Assembly: GCA_946184675.1 (NCBI GenBank)
Contig: CAMHFW010000003.1
Coordinates: 1 to 42,980, forward strand
Direction of reading: 5' to 3'
DNA from: an uncultured Clostridia bacterium
GTDB lineage: Bacteria > Bacillota > Clostridia > Lachnospirales > Lachnospiraceae
DNA: 42,980 bases
The position numbers and the translations under genes were made by a program. Of this stretch, positions 17,523-42,954 are shown piece after piece; position 1 is the first letter of the stretch, and every line of letters starts with the position of its first letter. The notes below the pieces were generated by a model. The model saw only the letters and a program-made list of their open reading frames with translations, had not been told where the DNA came from and did no database searches.

Positions 17523-17671
17523 GGAGACAGGGGACGGTTCTCTGTCTCCCTCCCCCTGTCGTCATACATCTTCAAAAAAAGCTCGAAAAGCCAGTTTTAT
17601 GCTGGTTTTCGAGCTTTTTTTGTCGAACGGAATGGAAGAAAGGGGGAGACAGAGAACCGTCCCCTGTCTCC
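17523..17671. mobile_element. 149-bp REP/MITE-like element carrying a bidirectional terminator
   Basis: 27-nt arms (17523-17549 and 17645-17671) are exact inverted copies, identical to those at 1-83. Inside lies a long A-tract/T-tract hairpin. The trigger factor stop codon ends at 17520, and the AEC transporter stop (minus, 17672-17674) begins where the right arm ends. The element thus fills the whole convergent intergenic space. Copy 3 (42806-42954) has the same length with the interior inverted. Confidence 0.85.
17574..17621. terminator. Bidirectional terminator inside the repeat element
   Basis: AAAAAAAGCTCGAAAA pairs with TTTTCGAGCTTTTTTT (16 bp, plus CCAG/CTGG after a bulge). A-tract on the left and T-tract on the right make it usable from both strands, serving the convergent trigger factor and AEC genes. 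Confidence 0.9.
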
Positions 17672-21549: not shown

Positions 21550-22500
21550 ATGAAAGTTGTAATTTTAGAGCCGCTGGCTGTTGAGAAGGACCGCCTGATG
21601 GCAATCGCACAGGAGATTTTAGGAGACAGTGTAGAGATTACCATGTATGACAACCGGACACTTGATCCCCAGGAACTGATCGAGCGCGGAAAAGATGCGG
21701 ACATCGTAATCGAGGCCAACCAGCCCCTCAGCGCTGAAGTAATCAAAGGGTTTAAGAACTGCAAACTGCTCAATGTCGGTTTCACCGGACTGGACCATGT
21801 AGCACTGGATGCCTGCAAAGAAATGGGCATGATGGTCTGCAATTGCTCCGGATATTCCACAGCCTGCGTAGCAGACCTTGTATTCGGATCCCTGATCTCC
21901 TTCTACAGAAATATTGCAGCCTGTGACACCGCAACCAGAAACGGCGGCACTATGGCAGGTCTGGTAGGATATGAGCTGGAAGGCAAGAAGTTCGGCGTAG
22001 TCGGAACCGGCGCCATCGGCCTCAGAGTCGCAAAGATCGCCGCAGCATTCGGCTGCGAAGTATACGCATACAGCAGAACCGTTAAGGATGTACCCGGCGT
22101 GACCTATGTATCTCTCGATGAGCTGATGAGCACCTGCGACATCATCTCCCTGCACATGCCTTCCAACGCATCCACAAAGGGAATGATCAGCGCAGAAAAG
22201 ATCGCTATGATGAAAGAGAACGCAGTCCTGATCAACATGGCAAGAGGTCCCGTAATCGACAGCCAGGCCCTGGCTGACGCACTCAACAATGACAAGATCC
22301 TCGGCGCCTGCATCGACGTATACGAGATGGAGCCTCCCATCCCCGGCGATCACCCGCTGCTCACCGCAAAACACACCGTAGTAACACCGCACGTAGCATT
22401 CGCCACCAAAGAAGCCTTCATCAAACGCGCCTACATACTCTTCGAGAATATAAAAGCCTACATGAACGGCACACCCCAGAACGTAAAAGTAGAAGCATAA
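21550..22500 (+). CDS. D-isomer-specific 2-hydroxyacid dehydrogenase
   Basis: NAD(P)-dependent oxidoreductase acting on D-2-hydroxyacids or related 2-oxoacids, 316 aa. The dinucleotide-binding loop GVVGTGAIGLRVAKIA is at about residues 149-164. The catalytic Arg is in MARGPVID, the Glu in YEMEPPIP, and the His in VVTPHVAF. The N-terminal substrate domain includes VGFTGLDHVAL. The track start (21331) is upstream of the real ATG 21550, which has AGGAGG at about 8 nt. Substrate unassigned. It has its own promoter with palindrome and terminator, so is probably a single-gene unit. Confidence 0.93.
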   Translation: MKVVILEPLAVEKDRLMAIAQEILGDSVEITMYDNRTLDPQELIERGKDADIVIEANQPLSAEVIKGFKNCKLLNVGFTGLDHVALDACKEMGMMVCNCSGYSTACVADLVFGSLISFYRNIAACDTATRNGGTMAGLVGYELEGKKFGVVGTGAIGLRVAKIAAAFGCEVYAYSRTVKDVPGVTYVSLDELMSTCDIISLHMPSNASTKGMISAEKIAMMKENAVLINMARGPVIDSQALADALNNDKILGACIDVYEMEPPIPGDHPLLTAKHTVVTPHVAFATKEAFIKRAYILFENIKAYMNGTPQNVKVEA

Positions 22501-22521
22501 AACAAAACAGCAATAACAGAA

Positions 22522-22554
22522 AAAGAGACCGGAAAACCAGCCGGTCTCTTTTTT
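22522..22554 (+). terminator. Rho-independent terminator after the dehydrogenase
   Basis: AAAGAGACCGG and CCGGTCTCTTT form an 11-bp stem with an 8-nt loop, followed by TTTT. Confidence 0.9.
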
Positions 22555-22574: not shown

Positions 22575-22602
22575 TAGACAAACCAAAAAATAGGGGTATA
22601 AT
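22575..22602 (+). promoter_or_regulatory. Promoter of the hairpin leader and prsW
   Basis: TAGACA (22575-22580), 16 bp, TATAAT (22597-22602). Transcription would start near 22609, just before the first hairpin. Confidence 0.6.
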
Positions 22603-22617
22603 GTGTTTAAAAACCGT

Positions 22618-22751
22618 CGCCCCACCAGAGAATACAGTACTGCCGTGGGAGCTTGCTCACAACGGCAGTACTGTATTCTCTGGTGGGGCGGACCAGACGC
22701 GGAGCGTCTCGGTCCGGCCGCAGTGCGGAGAGCAAAGCTCACCGCACATGC
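22618..22751 (+). promoter_or_regulatory. Three-hairpin leader upstream of prsW
   Basis: Three consecutive stem-loops lie between the TATAAT and the prsW ribosome site. Hairpin 1 is a perfect 29-bp inverted repeat (22618-22646 with 22662-22690) around a 15-nt loop GGGAGCTTGCTCACA. Hairpin 2 (22690-22715) has 11 bp with one bulged C and a GGA loop. Hairpin 3 (22720-22751) has GTGCGG-A-GAGC pairing with GCTC-A-CCGCAC and an AAA loop. No known riboswitch was recognised. It may be a structured 5' UTR or an inserted palindromic element. Confidence 0.75.
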
Positions 22752-22777
22752 GGGAGACAGATAGAGAAAGGGGAAAC

Positions 22778-23470
22778 ATGTCAATCATCATCATTGCAGG
22801 CATGCTGCCGGCATTCATCCTGCTGTATTTCATCTACAAACAGGACAAGATCGAAAAGGAACCGATGGGGCTGATCATAAAGCTCTTCATCCTCGGCGGA
22901 CTGATGACCATTCCGGCCGGAATCGCGGAATCTTTCTTCATTCCCATCGCGATGAATTTGCTGGCAGGCGGCAGCGGACTCCTTTTCCTGCTGGTGGAGA
23001 ATTTCCTGATTGTCGGACTTGCGGAGGAAGGATTCAAGCGGCTGGTTATGCGCGGGCTCACCTGGAACCATCCGGCATTCAACTACCGCTTTGACGGCGT
23101 CGTATACGGTGTGGCGGTCTCTCTTGGTTTCGCGGCTTTTGAAAATGTGATGTATGTTATGGGATACGGTCTTGGCATCGCTCCCATACGTGCGGTCACA
23201 GCGATTCCGCTTCACTGTATTGTCGGTGTTTTTATGGGTCATTATTACGGAATGTCGAGATTCTACGCGGTTAGGGGGAAGGAGATTCAGAGCAGAAGAA
23301 ATCAGAAGCTCAGCCTGTGGGTTCCGGTTCTGATTCACGGTTTATATGACTTTGCTGCTGTTGCCGGATCCCCTGCCATGGAGGCGGGATTCCTTGCATT
23401 CATCGTAATTCTTGATATTATCGCAATTTCCGCAGTACGGAGATTCGCAAGAAATGATCAGCCGGCCTGA
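22778..23470 (+). CDS. PrsW-type intramembrane metalloprotease
   Basis: Polytopic membrane protein of the PrsW/CPBP-like metalloprotease clan, 230 aa with about seven helices. Family residues are visible: EEGFKR (EExxK, about residue 87), FDGVVYGVAVSLGFAAFEN, PLHCIVGVFMGHYYG and the C-terminal HGLYDF. PrsW cleaves anti-sigma factors at site 1 in Bacillus; the target here is unknown. The track start (22601) would translate the hairpin leader; ATG 22778 with AAAGGGG upstream and an N-terminal membrane segment fits better. It is followed 22 nt later by an EIIC gene. Confidence 0.92.
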   Translation: MSIIIIAGMLPAFILLYFIYKQDKIEKEPMGLIIKLFILGGLMTIPAGIAESFFIPIAMNLLAGGSGLLFLLVENFLIVGLAEEGFKRLVMRGLTWNHPAFNYRFDGVVYGVAVSLGFAAFENVMYVMGYGLGIAPIRAVTAIPLHCIVGVFMGHYYGMSRFYAVRGKEIQSRRNQKLSLWVPVLIHGLYDFAAVAGSPAMEAGFLAFIVILDIIAISAVRRFARNDQPA

Positions 23471-25672: not shown

Positions 25673-27967
25673 TCAGCCGGCCACATCGGCAGTGCCGGGG
25701 TCAGCAGGTGCGCTAGGCTCGGTAGGAGTGACCGGAGCTTCCGTAGCCGGAGCTTCCGTAGCCGGAGCTTCGGTTGCAGGGGCTTCGGTAGCCGGAGCTT
25801 CTGTAGCCGGAGCGCTTGTTTCAGGCGCTTTGGTCTCCGGAGCCTTGGTCTCAGGCGCTTTGGTCTCCTTTTTTGTTTCCGTTTCGGTTTCGGTTTCGGA
25901 TTCGGTTTCGGTTTCTTTTTCTTTCTTTTTGGTACCGGAAATATAAGTATTGTTTTCTTTGTTCTTGTATTCCGGGAAGTCTGCAGGAACCAGACCCTCG
26001 TGGAGTGAATTCATAAAGGACTGCCAGATAAAGCCGGGATAAGTAGCGCCCATCAGGTCTTCGGTAGCCTCAGGGGTATCATTGCCGACCCAGATGGCGG
26101 TTGTGTAATATCTGGTATAGCCTACAAACCATCCATCTCGTCCTTCGTCAGTGGTACCGGTCTTTCCGGCAGCGGGCATGCCGCCGTCAAGAGCCAGACC
26201 GTAGGCGGTTCCCATGGGATCTTCGATGACGCCTTTCATGATATCGGTCATCATACGGGCGCTTTCCTGTTTATAGATCTGTGTCTCTTCCGGCTTTTCG
26301 CCGTAGATGATATTGCCGGAATAGTCTGTGATTTGTAAAATGCAGGTGGCGCCGCGATAGACGCCGTCATTTTCCAGAGCAGCATAGGCACTGGCCATTT
26401 CCAGAGGGGAGACGCCGTGGGTCATGCCGCCGATGGATACGGCCGGGGCAACGTCATCGTCCACAATCTTGGAAAAATGCATGTTTTTGAGGAAAGAGAG
26501 ACAGTACTCCGGCCCCAGATCCTGGAACATCTGCCAGGCCACTGTATTCAGAGAGAGATAGACAGCCGAACGGATGGTGACACGGCCGAAAAACATCTTT
26601 TCCGCGTTCTGCGGTCCGTTCTTGATCTCTTTATCTTCCACGATGGAGGAGGGGGTAAAATCTTTGTCAAAGGCGGGCGTATAATCGATCAGCGGTTTGA
26701 TCGAGCTGCCCGGCTGGCGGAAACTCTGGAAAGCACGGTTGAGAGTGTAGCCGGAAAGAGCCGGATTGCTGCGGCCGCCGACGATAGCGGTTACATAACC
26801 AGTCTTGTTATCAATACAAACGCCGGCACTCTGCATCTCATAGTCACCGGTTGAGTCGGTTATGTCCGTGAAATCCTCCAGACCGTCATCAATCGATTGC
26901 TGCAGCAATCTCTGCATGCTCATGTCGATGGAGGTATAAAGATTGTATTTGCCGGAATAAAGCTCAGCCATGCACTGGGCATAGAGGTCGTTGTATTTCT
27001 CTTCATAGGCTGCGCGTTCGCTGTCAGAAGGGAAATCATACTGGAACTGGAAACCGGTGGTTTCCATCAGGGCCTCTGCCGCGCAGTGATAGGCGAAGGT
27101 GTCGACATAATTGTGGATGACGGCAGGTTTATTCCCGGACAGATCCAGAGCGATTTTCTCATGAATGGCCTGTTCATACTCAGGCCGGGAAATATAGCCC
27201 TCATTGAACATGTTTTCCAGCATCAGATCCCGGCGTTCATAGGTGTTGTCAATATTCTCTATCGGGTCGTAGTAGGAAGGACTGTTGGGGATCGCGCACA
27301 GGAAGGCAATCTGGGACAGGCTCAGATCCTTAAGATCACAGTTGAAGTAGCCGGTGCAGGCAGCCTTGACCCCGTAGTAGCCGTTGGCAAAATAGATGTT
27401 ATTGAGGTAGAATTCCATGATGTCGTCTTTGGTGTAGCGCTGCTCCAGATCCATGGCAATGAAGATTTCCTGGACCTTGCGCTCCCAGGTCTGGGCACCG
27501 GTCAGAAAGACATTTTTTGCCAGCTGCTGGGTGATGGTGCTGCCGCCCTGGGTGATGGTGCCGCTGTTTTTGATATAGGCCTGCAGAGCACGCATCATGG
27601 CCTTGGGATCGAAACCGTTATGTTCGTAGAACTTGCGGTCCTCCGTGCTGATCATTGCCTTGGAAAAGGCATCGGGAATGTCAGAGTAGGTAACGTATTC
27701 CCCGTTTTTCTCTGCAGTCATTTCGGTAATGACCCTGCCGTCCGACCCGTAGATGGAGCCGGCCTTATCTGGGACAAAGGTCGTCCGGTCTGAGGCTGCG
27801 ACAAGTTCATCCGCCTCTTCCTTAAGAGCCACGACCTGATCGGGAATGCCGGAGTACATCACATATCCGACGCCGCCGATCACGGCAACGACCAGGACCA
27901 GAAGAATCAGCAGAAAGAAATTACGTATGTAATGGTGTTTTTTATGTTTTCTACGCTTTTTAGCCAT
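25673..27967 (-). CDS. Class A penicillin-binding protein (PBP1A type)
   Basis: Bifunctional peptidoglycan synthase, 764 aa. A basic cytoplasmic start (MAKKRRKHKK) and one membrane helix (about 17-40) precede the GT51 glycosyltransferase with catalytic Glu in TEDRKFYEHNGFD (E109) and ITQGGSTITQQLAKN. The transpeptidase carries SSIK (nucleophile serine in PGSSIKP), SLN and KTGTTDEGRDGWFVGYT. The C-terminus is a low-complexity tail of KETETESE-type and ATEAP repeats, likely crossing the wall. ATG 27967 (AGGAGGAG upstream) is preferred to the track start 28042. Function is clear from the family. Confidence 0.95.
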   Translation of the reverse strand: MAKKRRKHKKHHYIRNFFLLILLVLVVAVIGGVGYVMYSGIPDQVVALKEEADELVAASDRTTFVPDKAGSIYGSDGRVITEMTAEKNGEYVTYSDIPDAFSKAMISTEDRKFYEHNGFDPKAMMRALQAYIKNSGTITQGGSTITQQLAKNVFLTGAQTWERKVQEIFIAMDLEQRYTKDDIMEFYLNNIYFANGYYGVKAACTGYFNCDLKDLSLSQIAFLCAIPNSPSYYDPIENIDNTYERRDLMLENMFNEGYISRPEYEQAIHEKIALDLSGNKPAVIHNYVDTFAYHCAAEALMETTGFQFQYDFPSDSERAAYEEKYNDLYAQCMAELYSGKYNLYTSIDMSMQRLLQQSIDDGLEDFTDITDSTGDYEMQSAGVCIDNKTGYVTAIVGGRSNPALSGYTLNRAFQSFRQPGSSIKPLIDYTPAFDKDFTPSSIVEDKEIKNGPQNAEKMFFGRVTIRSAVYLSLNTVAWQMFQDLGPEYCLSFLKNMHFSKIVDDDVAPAVSIGGMTHGVSPLEMASAYAALENDGVYRGATCILQITDYSGNIIYGEKPEETQIYKQESARMMTDIMKGVIEDPMGTAYGLALDGGMPAAGKTGTTDEGRDGWFVGYTRYYTTAIWVGNDTPEATEDLMGATYPGFIWQSFMNSLHEGLVPADFPEYKNKENNTYISGTKKKEKETETESETETETETKKETKAPETKAPETKAPETSAPATEAPATEAPATEAPATEAPATEAPVTPTEPSAPADPGTADVAG
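25736..25920 (-). repeat. In-frame tandem repeats encoding the PBP tail
   Basis: About five 15-nt units (GGAGCTTCCGTAGCC-like on the plus strand) encode ATEAP, followed by 24-nt KAPET-type units and a GGTTTC hexamer run encoding ET pairs. All units are multiples of 3 nt, so copy-number changes would keep the reading frame. Confidence 0.85.
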
Positions 27968-28127
27968 GAAGATCTCTCCTCCTTTAATAAAACGGGCAGT
28001 GAAAGCCCGGATAAAATCAGATAACCGGGATCTGTAAGACACAAATCTATCCTAGTATAGCAGATAATATAAGAAAAGTCCAAAAAAGCTTAAATAGAAG
28101 GATAGTCTGCCGGCAGTGACAAAACTA

Positions 28128-42805: not shown

Positions 42806-42954
42806 GGAGACAGGGGACGGTTCTCTGTCTCCCCCCTTTCTTTCATTCCGTTCGACAAAAAAGCTCGAAAACCAGCATAAAACTGGCTTTTCGAGCTTTT
42901 TTTGAAGCCATGTGGCGACAGGGGTAGGGAGACAGAGAACCGTCCCCTGTCTAC
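42806..42954. mobile_element. 149-bp REP/MITE-like element, inverted copy
   Basis: Same length and arms as 17523-17671, but its interior is the reverse complement of that copy. The left arm (42806-42832) is exact; the right arm ends CTGTCTAC instead of CTGTCTCC, a one-base change. It follows the MATE stop by 6 nt. The last 26 nt of the window (42955-42980) hold nothing recognisable. Confidence 0.85.
42857..42903. terminator. Bidirectional terminator inside the third element
   Basis: AAAAAAGCTCGAAAA pairs with TTTTCGAGCTTTTTT, the same stem as in copy 2 in opposite orientation. It probably terminates the MATE gene. Confidence 0.88.

Follow-up and report, generated by a model that had tools for sequence, protein, structure and literature searches.

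The window, meaning the whole 42,980-nucleotide stretch analysed here, comes from an uncultured Clostridia bacterium of the Lachnospiraceae. Between a promoter-like site and a prsW-family intramembrane protease gene it carries three adjacent hairpins (Table 1), an arrangement described in the original prediction and borne out by both the fold and the coordinates. As that prediction also held, hairpin A is a perfect 29-bp inverted repeat lying about 9 nt 3' of the likely transcription start, as judged from the promoter-like match: its two arms (22618-22646 and 22662-22690; 29 nt each) are 100% complementary, and the 15-nt spacer between them folds into a small stem-loop of its own. This is by far the longest perfect hairpin of the 43-kb window, the runner-up having 17 bp. 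Hairpins B and C follow directly 3' of hairpin A, and the prsW start codon at 22778 lies outside the hairpins.

Table 1. Features of the prsW locus, in window coordinates
Feature	Position	Strand	Description
Terminator-like hairpin	22520..22553	.	belongs to the upstream 2-hydroxyacid dehydrogenase gene (21550-22500)
Sigma-70-like promoter	22575..22602	+	TAGACA-16-TATAAT; 11/12 consensus bases; 0.3 expected in shuffles
Whole cloverleaf element	22616..22758	+	three hairpins plus GUC/GAC closing stem; covariance-model match 22606-22768
Hairpin A	22618..22690	+	perfect 29-bp stem; apical GAGCUUGCUC (CUUG tetraloop), conserved family-wide
Hairpin B	22690..22715	+	GGACC AGACGC GGA GCGTCT C GGTCC; GNA triloop kept in family
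Hairpin C	22718..22753	+	stem of type CCGCA GTGCGG GAGC AAA GCTC CCGCAC TGCGG
prsW-family intramembrane protease gene	22778..23470	+	PF13367 PrsW, E = 8e-29; SD AAAGGGG 22767-22773

Folding and surroundings of the hairpins

Folded as RNA, the three-hairpin unit reaches -108.5 kcal/mol (z = -13.1, with 0 of 200 shuffles as good), and the values are just as extreme (z about -13 to -14) when DNA parameters are used or the opposite strand is folded. The hairpins had previously been taken as three separate structures; this is corrected by a weak closing helix, GUC (22616-22618) with GAC (22756-22758), which turns them into one cloverleaf. The helix is conserved in sister copies of the unit, where it is stronger than in the window copy. 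The promoter-like site is host DNA just upstream of the element, outside the element itself, and many sister copies, like this one, sit directly 3' of the T-run of a terminator. The earlier statement that the unit matches no riboswitch or T-box holds, Rfam scans having given no match to a known cis-regulatory family. The sub-cut-off Rfam matches of the window were microRNA-type long hairpins only and were judged spurious.

A dispersed family with IS66-type ends

Copies of the element occur at numerous unrelated sites in Lachnospiraceae of the gut and rumen, and the original suggestion of a novel palindromic element was to that extent right. Blast identified a second copy in the same genome, on contig C131, with 73% identity and the same hairpin order, and a pattern built from the window and C131 copies recovered full copies in four rumen Lachnospiraceae MAGs. 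Dozens of copies lie beside unrelated genes in other rumen Lachnospiraceae, and a single genome, G042, accounts for 71 blast matches, among which are about 25 near-full copies and fragments. A covariance model trained on 24 copies (nine candidates were scored per genome, and counts are minima) located at least five copies in the window's genome, on contigs C3 (the window), C33, C131, C101 and C34, and, across 299 genomes of the family, strong copies in at least seven more genera. The window copy scores 129 bits, but is itself in the training alignment. Its interior is homologous to family members, and the invariant GAGCTTGCTC and AGACGCNNNGCGTCT recur at like spacing in the window copy, on contig C131 and in other MAGs. 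Across the family the element measures about 164 bp, with three hairpins inside a closing stem, and double-sided changes affect 36 of the 48 pairs in the family alignment.

Searches of plasmid and phage records gave no match to the element. Since the window's genome was the only match to the exact tip GTGGGAGCTTGCTCAC over 391 genomes of the class, this tip is too strict as a marker; it is also present, exactly, on eleven viral contigs (L226-L236). Pattern matches in alphaproteobacteria and others outside the Lachnospiraceae are without hairpins, and look like shared coding sequence or chance. Two contigs of the window's MAG (C77:1 and C131:1-165) start inside or beside element copies, as expected if the repeat breaks assembly. 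Hairpins B and C also occur as tandem duplicates without hairpin A (L114 at 2182-2386, L115, L038 after 1545, and likewise L200, which adjoins the C33 copy), so the modules recombine separately.

Copies with intact ends start with GTAAYTATTCAGCACCCC and finish with its inverse, and many have terminal inverted repeats beginning GTAA. Among 48 copies, 8-bp target duplications are perfect in 7 and match at 7/8 or better in 14, where mismatched pairs of flanks give expectations of 0.02 and 0.47 respectively. When lengths from 5 to 12 were tested on these 48 copies, the signal was found at 8 bp alone; shifting the boundary by one base leaves a single case at 7/8 or better, and only one such case is seen at any other offset. 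Insertion sequences of the IS66 family have ends that begin GTAA and make an 8-bp target duplication (PMC11946415). Genome G041, which carries copies of the element, has on contig C48 an IS66 transposon of 1988 bp that encodes a transposase of 504 aa, has GTAACTGTTCAGAACCCC and GTAACTATTCAGAACCCC as its boundaries and is flanked on both sides by its own 8-bp duplication, AATCTTAC. Its ends differ from those of the element by one or two bases, and the same IS66 end is present in G078 and G043. This is the only fully bounded IS66 found, and its interior is not common to the element. No IS66 transposase was found in G233 or G263, though the copies there look recent.

Taken together, the GTAAYTATTCAGCACCCC ends, the exact 8-bp duplications and the matching IS66 make it very probable that the unit represents one copy of an IS66-type MITE, a transposable element of the non-autonomous kind. 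That an IS66 enzyme moves it is a well-supported inference from the end match and the target duplications. An IS66-family transposase acting in trans on the GTAAYTATTCAGCACCCC ends would insert the element into AT-rich intergenic DNA and duplicate 8 bp of the target, often landing 3' of a terminator or in the interval from a promoter to its gene, and the inverted ends would form a stem that closes around the three interior hairpins. The ends alone appear to suffice for mobility, since a 59-bp derivative made up of the ends and part of hairpin C alone has duplicated its target perfectly (TAACATAT). The family resembles IS66 sequences and IS-derived MITEs in its GTAA ends, 8-bp duplication, lack of coding capacity and many intergenic copies; a complete IS66 whose ends are nearly identical also occurs in a copy-bearing genome. 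The family differs in its interior, which consists of three strongly conserved hairpins with covariation rather than of a deleted IS66; in the literature searched, no such MITE was found for Lachnospiraceae. Genome G042 additionally holds two solo palindromes of about 35 bp that lack an interior, one consisting of two MITE ends back to back (L166, C11:28604-28638), the other of two such ends of which the second is degraded (L151, C6:45883).

Perfect stems and the folded sense strand

A perfect stem of this length was originally considered rare, and a sign of recent insertion or strong selection. Neither is needed. In most G042 copies hairpin A is imperfect, interrupted by a small internal bubble, but sister copies record how arms come to agree: in L084 and L095 the right arm has been rewritten to match the left, in L076 (2440-2603) the left has been rewritten to match the right, and L088 has undergone full inversion of the loop. 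Polymerase template switching is described as yielding both arm homogenisation and spacer inversion (PMC8604942), and it can create and maintain perfect hairpins (PMC8794818). Given both kinds of change in sister copies, the 29-bp stem can be explained without recent insertion or strong selection, and was probably made and kept by template switching between its arms during replication; selection on the folded sense strand possibly acts on the stem as well. With dozens of sister copies, one genome thus offers a natural experiment on the origin and persistence of perfect hairpins, where the sequences directly display arm homogenisation and loop inversion.

Mismatches in the hairpins are strand-asymmetric (G.A/A.G 62 versus C.T/T.C 7; G-U 32 versus A-C 17), partly as a result of shared ancestry. 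This asymmetry, and the retention of hairpins in copies that have lost their ends, hints that the folded sense strand may have some function, which would be something a purely selfish MITE does not need. From their sequence conservation, the CUUG and GNA caps, like the asymmetry, may reflect such a function, exercised as RNA or as single-stranded DNA.

The layout has a counterpart in Clostridiales-1 (RF01699), which was listed in 2010 as probably RNA and not cis-regulatory (Weinberg et al., PMC2864571). In both, a closing stem surrounds three hairpins, the first with a stem of 20-plus bp and a GCUUGC cap and the last with a GNA triloop; hairpin B differs. The window unit and its close copies gave no match to RF01699 even at permissive E-values and do not reach the gathering cut-off, so that, with layout and cap in common, we claim shared architecture and not membership. 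Weaker covariance-model matches in other Lachnospiraceae are also cloverleaves, most with the tip GGGAGCTTGCTCAC, and one of them (L264), at 29.9 bits with our family model, is an RF01699 member at 112 bits. GTAACTGTTCAG ends are present on two cloverleaf relatives, L179 and L180, and direct reading of the L179 sequence shows a perfect duplication, aaattaca; the single RF01699 copy inspected showed no IS66 ends. A common origin of the window family and Clostridiales-1 is probable. Another cloverleaf relative, L258 (G204:C9), adjoins the 3' end of a tRNA gene.

These parallels raise the alternative that the unit is a functional trans-acting structured RNA, Clostridiales-1-like and spread by transposition, with its sense-strand fold selected as RNA or single-stranded DNA. 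The conserved G(CUUG)C tip and G.A pairs, the strand-asymmetric mismatches, the covariation and the architecture common to RF01699, with its scoring by Weinberg et al. as probably RNA, are what such a molecule would be expected to display. However, no promoter of its own is evident for the unit, it is not associated with particular genes, mobility does not require hairpins A and B (as the 59-bp derivative indicates), and template switching alone is able to maintain pairing (PMC8794818). We regard this alternative as unlikely, though it deserves to be taken seriously. Somewhat more attractive, if still tentative, is a broader scheme in which IS66-type transposases would have spread a single Lachnospiraceae cloverleaf superfamily, with Clostridiales-1 and the window family as branches of it. 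In both, the folded sense strand, capped by CUUG and GNA and present as RNA or single-stranded DNA, would serve the element's own life cycle, while template switching would let the long stem drift fast and yet stay perfectly paired. If true, this would give a likely origin, transposition, for Clostridiales-1-type structured repeats, an RNA motif unexplained since 2010, and it cautions that strong covariation in an RNA-like motif does not by itself make the motif a regulatory RNA.

The copy upstream of prsW

What, then, can be said of the copy in the window? Neither GTAA ends nor an 8-bp duplication can be recognised in it, the best 8-mer agreement being 6/8. Ends have diverged in the copies of this genome generally (e.g. 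CATTAAGCAC in C33), while the hairpins are still near-perfect, each with a different stem sequence, and no IS66 transposase gene was found in the window's MAG (87% complete). A candidate for the empty site was sought in a same-genus genome, where one neighbour locus was found with the PTS gene present and a different gene order. The decayed ends and the lack of an observed empty site are the weak points of the MITE reading. The best reading of the window copy is an insertion that is old and immobile and today forms the leader of prsW; the family would be old in this genome, with its ends decayed, no IS66 gene found and this copy fixed in front of prsW.

The original prediction offered, as one possibility, a regulatory RNA controlling a membrane-stress protease. 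As a cis-acting prsW leader, such an RNA would sense membrane stress, or would protect or block the prsW transcript. The unit does lie in sense orientation between a strong promoter-like site and the prsW SD, so would be transcribed, and its fold is extremely stable. Yet a search for the unit elsewhere, set beforehand as the refutation of the leader idea, found it at many unrelated loci, beside unrelated genes and in both orientations, with no other copy before prsW. Orientation relative to neighbouring genes is unbiased (same-same 22, opposite-opposite 14, p = 0.24), and the family as a whole is therefore not a cis-regulatory leader. Blast against five further genomes from this genus found no match, and the unit has no Rfam match. 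That regulation of prsW explains the unit is thus very improbable, and automatic annotation could easily mislabel it as a prsW leader RNA. This particular copy may influence prsW expression locally; under the MITE reading, any effect on prsW mRNA would be a by-product.

Least credible of all is a REP/BIME-type element moved by a RAYT (Y1 transposase), with which the family shares its short, palindromic, dispersed intergenic repeats, and Y1 genes do occur in four of five genomes, but its ends are different, no copy with flanking sequence lies within about 1.5 kb of a Y1 gene, with none in the window genome, and the 8-bp duplications, which Y1 enzymes are not known to make in exact form, rule this out for the family.

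Two further features of the window lie apart from the element. Near-identical perfect palindromes of 46-50 bp (AAAAAAGCTCGAAAA...TTTTCGAGCTTTTTT) occur in opposite orientation at 17573-17622 and 42857-42902, and represent another small repeat, probably a bidirectional terminator. On the minus strand, a penicillin-binding-protein-like gene (25673-28042) encodes a C-terminus consisting of a tandem ETKAPETKAP/ATEAPATEAP repeat.
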